From contig CAJWFD010000010.1 of assembly GCA_913031435.1 (NCBI GenBank), forward strand, positions 1 through 62,131: DNA of 62,131 nt, given 5' to 3'. The stretch is from an uncultured Cryomorphaceae bacterium (GTDB lineage Bacteria; Bacteroidota; Bacteroidia; Flavobacteriales; Schleiferiaceae). Below are positions 41,324 to 43,479 of this stretch, in pieces. Position 1 is the first letter of the stretch, and each line of letters begins with the position of its first letter. The position numbers and the translations under genes were made by a program. The notes under the pieces are model-generated. The model saw only the letters and a list, made by a program, of their open reading frames with translations, was not told where the DNA came from and did no database searches.

Positions 41324-41438
41324 AAACAGATTAATTCGGTAATCAGATTTTGCTGAAGAATAAATTTCAGGTCTGTTTTAGGATGTGAGAAACCAAAATG
41401 TTGCAACAACATATCCATGGAATTCTCTTCATTAATGC

Positions 41439-41446
41439 TAACTTTG
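41439..41446 (+). promoter_or_regulatory. -7 promoter element of the flavin reductase-like operon
   Basis: TAACTTTG, perfect TAnnTTTG, 23 bases before the ATG at 41470. It lies inside a longer possible reading frame that begins at 41398, which argues for the later start. Confidence 0.6.
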
Positions 41447-41469
41447 AGAGAAGATTAAAGCCTTTAAAT

Positions 41470-42363
41470 ATGCCATCATATTCCCCGGAAGATTTATCTA
41501 CCAAAGAACGACATCAAATTTTATTGGCCTCGGTAGCGCCAAGGCCCATTGCATTAGTGTCTACGGTAGATGAACATGGAAATCACAACTTAAGCCCTTT
41601 CAGTTTTTTTAATATTTTTTCTTCCAATCCTCCAGTATTGATTTTCAGTGCAGCGCGAAGAGTAAGAAACAATACTACGAAGGACACGCTGCACAATGCA
41701 ATGTCTCAAAAGCAAGTGGTGGTTAATGTGGTTAACTATGATATGGCTCGGCAGGTGAATTTGAGTTCAGCGGAATACGATTCGTCTGTAGATGAGTTTG
41801 TAAAATCTGGATTAACGCCTATCCCTTCTGATTTTGTTTCTCCTCCCCGAGTTTTAGAAAGCCCAGTAAGTCTAGAGTGCGAGGTCATGGATGTTCATCA
41901 GTTAGGTGAAGAGGGTGGTGCAGGTAATTTAGTCATGTGCTTGATAAAAAAGATTCATGTTGCAGACCACGTAATGCTAGATGATGGAAGTATAGACCAA
42001 GAAGCTATTGACCTGGTTGGAAGATTGGGAAAAAAGTGGTGGGTACGAGCTTCTGGAGATGCGTTGTTTGAATTAGGAAGTCCCGCAATAGGAATAGGCG
42101 TAGATCAAATTCCGGAGGTAATCCGAAGATCAACAGTCCTAACGGGAAATAATTTGGGTCAATTAGGTGCCGTAACTTCCTTACCTTCGTTTACAGCTAT
42201 TGAGGTGATGAAATCCGATTTCGATGTACGAAGAATTCTTCAAAATTTCGCAGATGGAATTGAACTCAGAGAAGCTTTGCATGAGAAGGCGAAAGAGCTC
42301 CTTGAGTCAGAAAAAGTATTAGAAGCATGGAGTGTATTATTAATAGATAAATCGGCTCATTAG
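41470..42363 (+). CDS. Flavin reductase family (FMN-binding split-barrel) protein
   Basis: 297 residues from the ATG at 41470 (MPSYSPEDLSTKERHQILLA). VAPRPIALVSTVDEHGNHNLSPFSFFN and RNNTTKDTLHNA are the FMN-binding split-barrel motifs of the DIM6/NTAB family of flavin reductases; residues of about 200-297 form an extra C-terminal region. Cofactor FMN and a pyridine-nucleotide-dependent reduction are family inferences; the physiological substrate is unknown. A DUF3127 gene follows after 11 bases. Confidence 0.85.
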   Translation: MPSYSPEDLSTKERHQILLASVAPRPIALVSTVDEHGNHNLSPFSFFNIFSSNPPVLIFSAARRVRNNTTKDTLHNAMSQKQVVVNVVNYDMARQVNLSSAEYDSSVDEFVKSGLTPIPSDFVSPPRVLESPVSLECEVMDVHQLGEEGGAGNLVMCLIKKIHVADHVMLDDGSIDQEAIDLVGRLGKKWWVRASGDALFELGSPAIGIGVDQIPEVIRRSTVLTGNNLGQLGAVTSLPSFTAIEVMKSDFDVRRILQNFADGIELREALHEKAKELLESEKVLEAWSVLLIDKSAH

Positions 42364-42374
42364 AGTCAGTAGTT

Positions 42375-42755
42375 ATGCAGATGGAAGCGAGAATTTCCCA
42401 AATTATGGACGAACAAGTGATTTCTGATAGATTCAGAAAAAGAGAGTTCGTAGTTCAAACTAAGGAGCAGTATCCACAAACACTTTGCTTTGAGTTTACT
42501 CAAGATAAAACGGGTGTATTAGACAGTTATACTGGAGGTCAAGAAGTGGTTATTGAGTTTAATGTTCGTGGACGTGAATGGACACCACCACAGGGAGGTG
42601 CCACACGATATTATACAACGCTGCAGGCATGGAAAATGTCTCCATTAGCTCAGTCAGCTTCATCAGCACCGCCTACAGACTTACCTCCAGCTGGCCAGCC
42701 GTTCGCTCCTTCAGGTGCAGACAACAGTGTTCTAGACGACGACCTCCCGTTCTAA
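42375..42755 (+). CDS. DUF3127 protein with SSB-like acidic C-terminal tip
   Basis: 126 residues (an ATG at 42381 would give 124). The N-terminal part (about 1-92) carries QYPQTLCFEFTQDKTGVLD, GGQEVVIEFNVRGREWTPP and TRYYTTLQAWKM, which I recognise as DUF3127; the pattern of short beta strands around GREW and the closing TLQAWKM look like an OB-fold of single-stranded nucleic-acid binders. It is followed by a Pro/Ala/Ser-rich linker (about 95-118) and ends in NSVLDDDLPF, the exact style of the SSB tip (DDDIPF in E. coli) that recruits repair proteins. This arrangement suggests a single-stranded DNA-associated role. The function is not established. It sits 4 bases before aat. Confidence 0.8.
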   Translation: MQMEARISQIMDEQVISDRFRKREFVVQTKEQYPQTLCFEFTQDKTGVLDSYTGGQEVVIEFNVRGREWTPPQGGATRYYTTLQAWKMSPLAQSASSAPPTDLPPAGQPFAPSGADNSVLDDDLPF

Positions 42756-42759
42756 CATC

Positions 42760-43479
42760 ATGTCCAAGGCAAACAATCCTTTGTGTTTCATCGGTGAAGA
42801 GAACTGGCGCGTGCCAGACCCTACAGATGTTGCTAATGATGAAGGATTAATAGCACTTTCTTGGGATCTATCCCCAGATATGTACAGGAGATTGTACCCA
42901 AAAGGTATATTCCCATGGTTTGAGCAGGAGGAAGTGGTGTTTTGGTTCTCACCACATATCAGAAGCGTGACCCCCACTAACGGTGTTGTGATTTCTAAAA
43001 GTATGCGCCCATATTTTAATAAAAGACAGTGGCAGTTTAAAGTTAATAGTGACTTTTCTGCCGTTGTAGACCTCTGTGGGGAAGTGCTGAGATCTGACCA
43101 AGAAGGCACGTGGTTGTCCGATAAGTTCAAAAATAATTTTCGCCAAATGCATAGCCTTGGTATGGCCCATAGCTTTGAGGTTTGGGAGGGTGACGAATTA
43201 ATAGGCGGAACTTTTGGAGTGATGACTGGTGATGTGTTTGTTGGTGAGAGCATGTTTCACACCCGTCCTAACGCCTCTAAATTTGCTTATATAAACATGT
43301 GTATGTATTTGCATGATCAAGGTGTCCTCTTTGTAGATAACCAGCTCCCGACAGAACATCTTTGCAGTTTGGGCGCGTGGGATATAGATCGTGATGAATT
43401 TTTAGGAATACTAGACACACATGCCCTAGATAAGGTGGCCCACCCGTTGCCTTTAAATGAGCTGTATCGACCTGAATAG
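42760..43479 (+). CDS. aat: Leucyl/phenylalanyl-tRNA--protein transferase
   Basis: 239 residues, the N-end rule enzyme that adds Leu or Phe to proteins with N-terminal Arg or Lys so that ClpS and ClpAP can degrade them. GLIALSWDLSPDMYRRLYPKGIFPW and VVFWFSPHIRSV are the tRNA-binding start, and AHSFEVWEGDELIGGTFGV, GESMFHTRPNASKFA and FVDNQLPTEHLCSLGA are the GNAT-like core. It starts 4 bases after the DUF3127 gene and is in the same run. The 3' end is 1 base from the convergent permease gene with no terminator between. Confidence 0.95.
   Translation: MSKANNPLCFIGEENWRVPDPTDVANDEGLIALSWDLSPDMYRRLYPKGIFPWFEQEEVVFWFSPHIRSVTPTNGVVISKSMRPYFNKRQWQFKVNSDFSAVVDLCGEVLRSDQEGTWLSDKFKNNFRQMHSLGMAHSFEVWEGDELIGGTFGVMTGDVFVGESMFHTRPNASKFAYINMCMYLHDQGVLFVDNQLPTEHLCSLGAWDIDRDEFLGILDTHALDKVAHPLPLNELYRPE

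Follow-up and report, generated by a model that had tools for sequence, protein, structure and literature searches.

Is a protein that is listed only as DUF3127, and that ends in an acidic tip of the type found on canonical SSB, itself a single-stranded DNA (ssDNA)-binding protein? SSB is a normally essential protein on which much of DNA metabolism converges, and RecQ is among the partners of its acidic C terminus (SSB-Ct). The question is raised by the window, the whole 62,131-nucleotide stretch of DNA analyzed here, in which the ORF at 42375..42755 on the + strand encodes a 126-residue product having the motifs QYPQTLCFEF, GREWTPP, and TLQAWKM, a Pro/Ala/Ser-rich linker, and the end VLDDDLPF. 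Residues 3-88 match PF11325 (DUF3127) with an E value of 4.5e-25 and a score of 88.1 bits versus a curated cut-off of 27. An earlier note on this DNA had described the ORF, its coordinates, motifs, linker, and terminal DDDLPF just as we found them, and the neighbors it named, aat and a flavin reductase gene, were confirmed by Pfam matches. The features are given below.

42375..42755, + strand: DUF3127 protein of short SSB type (OB domain, disordered linker, acidic tip), 126 aa
42375..42644, + strand: predicted OB-fold domain, residues 1-90 (about 1-92), from AlphaFold2 and matches to SSB and PriB
42645..42734, + strand: linker, Pro/Ala/Ser-rich, predicted disordered and fast-evolving, residues 91-120, from pLDDT and pN/pS
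42735..42752, + strand: SSB-Ct-type acidic tip DDDLPF, residues 121-126, from pN/pS and Pro-Phe counts
41398..42363, + strand: flavin reductase gene (PF01613, 6.5e-17)
42760..43479, + strand: aat, leucyl/phenylalanyl-tRNA-protein transferase (PF03588, 1.3e-55)

The flavin reductase gene lies 11 bases upstream of the DUF3127 ORF and aat begins 4 bases downstream, a spacing from which we infer that the three genes are probably co-transcribed. The genome of the window encodes one DUF3127 protein and one intact canonical SSB, the tip of which is EEDDLPF. It also has a second, short canonical SSB copy (L003, G000:C26:1640-1939) that lacks the acidic tail and contains an in-frame TAG; this is either a decayed gene or an assembly error.

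The earlier note took the protein to be an OB-fold relative of SSB and proposed comparing a structure prediction of residues 1-92 with SSB and PriB. In the AlphaFold2 model the mean pLDDT of ten-residue blocks is 93-98 for residues 1-90 and about 50 across linker residues 91-120. The model has strands at residues 2-10, 21-29, and 36-42, a helix at 43-51, and strands at 57-69 and 78-90. Structural comparison returned SSB and PriB as the top matches, and one of the 50 VIA rows was an RNA-editing complex subunit. The predicted fold and these matches support the proposed relationship, and we are confident in the prediction that the domain (about residues 1-92) adopts an OB fold of SSB topology. 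For the structure alignment 58 sequences were tried and 48 used; L117 (a stop inside the range) and nine sequences whose match did not span the query were left out, and a few equally partial rows (L102, L108, L111, and L140) were retained. Near-invariant aromatic residues of the domain are F/W20, Y33, W/Y69, Y/W79, Y/F80, and W86, and near-invariant basic residues are K22, R67, and K87. The net charge of the window domain is -1, about neutral, and the family median is +1 (n = 141 of 151).

At the level of sequence the relation of DUF3127 to SSB is weak but consistent, and it is strongest in the final two domain strands. With the window protein as query, phmmer found a Deinococcus SSB at an E value of 0.0045, and BLASTP against the SSB of the same genome gave 3e-8, a single comparison to which the tail contributes. 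The phage profile PHROG 4932 ("single strand DNA binding protein") aligned residues 1-126 with profile positions 1-117, tail included (E 1.5e-31), and PHROG 44, which is also the top match of the genome's own canonical SSB, matched at 5.8e-7. Profile-profile comparison of the domain only gave a single-pair E value of 2.5e-4 with a probability of 43% in local and 10% in global mode (18% and 1%, respectively, with an earlier alignment). In the Pfam search the canonical SSB family, PF00436, gave no match to the window protein at E values up to 1, and the protein thus does not reach the curated cut-off of that family. When an SSB-domain profile devoid of the tail was run on 28 genomes, it gave strong matches in two positive controls and 14 weak matches in nine others, and all 14 fell in the DUF3127 reading frame. 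Conversely, DUF3127 profiles that included the tail matched the canonical SSB ORF in three genomes of the window's genus in which DUF3127 was not found. Canonical SSB and DUF3127 thus share an OB fold, a disordered linker, and an acidic tip ending in Pro-Phe, but the DUF3127 OB domain is about 15 residues shorter, and DUF3127 is encoded by a separate gene in genomes that also carry PF00436.

The tip sets these proteins apart from their surroundings. Among the 61 window ORFs of at least 100 residues, only the DUF3127 ORF ends in PF with two or more acidic residues in the preceding six. By the same measure 21 of 342 ORFs in the 14-kb loci of 20 relatives qualified, 20 of them being DUF3127 ORFs and the other a canonical SSB. 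As acidic PF ends are confined to DUF3127 and SSB among these ORFs, the DDDLPF tip is not a chance occurrence. The earlier note had asked whether the tail is conserved in DUF3127 homologs, and in cells it is nearly universal: Pro-Phe ends 151 of 151 loci among the matches listed (148 distinct places, three loci being repeat fetches of places already counted), all 80 loci from titled records, some of which bear the titles Gemmatimonadota and Alphaproteobacteria, and 46 of 48 loci from the window's genus and order and a family of reduced genomes; the three sets overlap in part. Across the 151 loci among the matches listed, two to seven of the ten residues before PF are acidic, and the third-last residue varies (83 DLPF, 26 DCPF, and 15 DVPF) while Pro-Phe is constant. 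Canonical SSBs of the same phylum also end in PF (31 of 31; in three loci at contig ends the tip is DDLPF). Among 20 sequences of the window's genus, the domain has a pN/pS of 0.116, the linker one of 0.342, and the tip one of 0.015, a pattern of conserved domain and tip with a drifting linker that, judged from sequence, is the mosaic expected of an SSB. An exact match of the tip to that of the host SSB was considered and rejected, since in G028, G060, and G075 the SSB ends in KDDLPF versus DGDMPF or DGDAPF for DUF3127. Intact tips are also present in L309, L312, L314, L321, L338, L340, and L345, from a group of records whose titles name Gemmatimonadota or Gemmatimonadetes, Alphaproteobacteria, and Sphingomonadales; these copies may reflect transfer, wide ancestry, or mis-binned contigs.

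DUF3127 was found in 171 of 296 genomes of a phylum-wide draw, the remaining 125 giving no match, and in 72 of 73 genomes of the window's own class, the window genome counted. Four of the 171 genomes have two copies and the rest have one. The window's relatives gave 37 of 40, including all 24 genomes that are at least 90% complete with no more than 5% contamination, and only one of 14 control genomes, Bacteroides ihuae, had the protein. A smaller draw of 148 genomes had canonical SSB in 146, and therefore genomes having DUF3127 usually have both proteins. The cellular neighborhood was dropped as functional evidence because neighbors are rarely conserved across relatives. Seven of 30 relatives' loci, all of the window protein's sequence type, have flavin reductase and aat on either side of DUF3127, and neither gene is found at the other 23. 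No neighbor cluster was common to more than three of 20 wider relatives' loci (best 25 clusters listed) or to more than 11 of 80 loci of titled records (best 15 listed). Judged by eye rather than by family search, the commonest neighbors in the latter set resemble aspartyl-tRNA synthetase, deaminase, and superoxide dismutase genes, and a ribonucleotide-reductase-like gene is common to four of the loci.

Phages give a different picture. A single-protein search of viral contigs gave no match, and an alignment search found at least 529 stretches that encode DUF3127 relatives, of which the best 80 form our phage locus set. The window protein has matches in 118 phage records, most of them from phages of Flavobacterium, Polaribacter, and Cellulophaga. 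Phages and titled records with related proteins suggest that the window comes from a Bacteroidota of Flavobacteriales type. In 60 of the 80 best loci the fetched DNA, which reaches up to 5 kb to each side, includes a recombination gene. The similarity clusters, each named from one representative, were YqaJ exonuclease (27 loci), ERF annealase (20), NinG (17), exonuclease VIII type (12), and NinB (6), and 19 of these 80 loci had no named recombination or replication family. In 38 whole phage records Pfam detected YqaJ in five and ERF in ten, with neither in 23, and the similarity clusters gave eight and nine, respectively, in the same records. Twelve of the 15 Pfam-detected genes share the strand of DUF3127 and are no more than 2.5 kb from it, by distances taken by hand. 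A canonical SSB above cut-off was absent from 37 of these 38 records, which may be fragments; in the one record having it, ERF is about 3 kb from SSB and 30 kb from DUF3127. This context points to recombination. The view of the earlier note that context gives no partner pathway therefore holds for cells, where context is uninformative, but not for phages, where recombination genes are nearby. Of the best 80 phage copies 66 end in PF, and some of the other 14 extend past PF while three stop near the domain end. Tailless proteins are encoded at L117, L141, and L143, where the chain ends no more than about eight residues from the conserved tryptophan.

Reduced genomes offer a separate view of the protein. 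Among the relatives of a 300-kb genome of the window's order is a set of 24 genomes of 200-600 kb, all of one family. By size and order these small genomes resemble those of Blattabacterium and Sulcia, which are insect endosymbionts. None of the 24 gave a canonical SSB, and a more sensitive profile matched only the DUF3127 frame. DUF3127 was found in 21 of the 24 (in G394 only in part); the other three remained negative with a closer profile, so neither protein was found in three of 24. Each of the seven 600-kb members is 99% complete, carries DUF3127, and gives no SSB match. Both proteins occur in a 1.3-Mb member of the family, and two additional genomes (1.7 and 1.9 Mb), both 99% complete, show DUF3127 only. 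Tails were read in 17 of the 21 small genomes: 15 end in PF, many as FDDLPF, and two 200-kb genomes lack this end. Replacement of canonical SSB by DUF3127 in these genomes is likely, not proven. Note that loss of SSB does not by itself prove replacement, because the tiny genome of Carsonella was reported to lack ssb in the available sections of PMC2175510. We slightly favor the view that the class runs a two-SSB system in which DUF3127 is the sole SSB of the reduced family and of the two 1.7-1.9-Mb relatives. In three 200-kb genomes (L380, L390, and L392) the linker has swollen to a long Asp/Glu tract, and the PF end is lost in L390 and L392.

The reading that we prefer, at a probability of roughly 0.84, is that DUF3127 proteins form a subfamily of SSB whose members coat ssDNA and bring in partners through the tip, in most cases beside canonical SSB, as the SSB of many phages, and probably as the only SSB of some reduced genomes. 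Weighing against it are the lack of a Pfam SSB match, the weak domain-only profile comparison, the near-neutral charge of the window domain, the phage loci with no named recombination or replication family, the 23 of 38 phage records with neither YqaJ nor ERF, the copies that do not end in PF, the genomes with no DUF3127 match, and the three reduced genomes with neither protein. The OB domain (about residues 1-92) would coat ssDNA by means of its near-invariant aromatic and basic residues, probably as an oligomer. The flexible linker would present DDDLPF, which may dock on an enzyme pocket of the kind used by canonical SSB-Ct. As the tip would dock on genome-maintenance enzymes, such partners would be brought to DUF3127-coated DNA; canonical SSB-Ct acts in this way on RecO, RecG, PriA, and others, according to the available parts of the published accounts. 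In most genomes having it, DUF3127 would act alongside canonical SSB, with recombination or repair as its most likely task, and in many phages it may be the SSB of a recombination module that helps load the annealase and exonuclease. If so, studies of repair and recombination in a whole class would have overlooked a main component, the protein is a candidate recombineering helper for these bacteria, and the means by which some reduced genomes live without canonical ssb would be explained. Should DUF3127 indeed be the sole SSB there, a role regarded as requiring canonical SSB would be filled by a protein of "unknown function".

The closest competing proposal is an OB protein of the PriB type acting in replication restart, which would bind SSB-coated DNA and hand it over to PriA with no coating activity of its own. 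PriB and DUF3127 share an SSB-derived OB domain of similar length. However, to our knowledge PriB has no acidic tail, whereas the tip is the most constrained part of DUF3127. Moreover, phage records having no canonical SSB above cut-off carry DUF3127, often near ERF or YqaJ, and DUF3127 is present in cellular genomes in which canonical SSB was not found. We consider a PriB-like role improbable. The earlier note had also suggested a decoy, a protein devoid of ssDNA binding whose tip titrates SSB partners. The DUF3127 tip does match in type the tip of the canonical SSB encoded in this genome, but purifying selection on the OB domain and its near-invariant aromatic and basic residues argue otherwise, as does retention of DUF3127 in 21 of 24 reduced genomes where no competing canonical SSB was found and in 37 of 38 phage records without SSB above cut-off. 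The decoy is thus very improbable.

It is also very improbable that DUF3127 is an OB-fold RNA-binding protein whose tip brings in RNA-processing enzymes. SSB-like OB folds can bind RNA, the structural matches include the RNA-editing subunit, and the cellular flanking genes (flavin reductase and aat) are not DNA-related, but the named phage neighbors are genes of DNA recombination and replication. Least probable is that the LPF tip serves chiefly as a ClpXP degron controlling how fast the protein is turned over. The available sections of PMC5143411 describe the LPF of Streptococcus mutans SsbA as a ClpXP signal, but also that E. coli ClpXP does not recognize DDDLPF, and among the listed cellular matches it is Pro-Phe that is invariant rather than the LPF triplet.

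Part of this reading has precedent. The earlier note knew of no described function for DUF3127, but the family does have some description: PHROGs and RefSeq phage records call relatives "single strand DNA binding protein", and PMC8004638, in its available sections, reports the domain in a phage SSB. The PHROG 4932 and RefSeq label covers phage proteins, whereas cellular members are listed as DUF3127 (plasmid records). Our literature search found no biochemistry on the family and, with most subscription papers outside its scope, no report on cellular DUF3127 function, the tip, or SSB replacement or persistence. By that search the phage annotation as SSB is already known, and the cellular protein, its tip, and its persistence without canonical SSB are seemingly unreported. 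A "hypothetical" protein of a different organism, Anabaena All4779, was reported to be the major typical SSB (available sections of PMC3976300). Phage HK620 has a distant SSB homolog, encoded beside an annealase gene, that recruits Sak4 through its last six residues, the stimulation being mostly tip-dependent (available sections of PMC5928155). It differs from DUF3127 in its NDYPPF tip, its 21.3-kDa chain, and its partner, Sak4 rather than ERF or YqaJ. A further phage neighbor is the phrog_21613 protein (L101:3894-4412), the cluster of which occurs in 21 of the 80 best phage loci, at a median of about 1 kb upstream of DUF3127 on the same strand.
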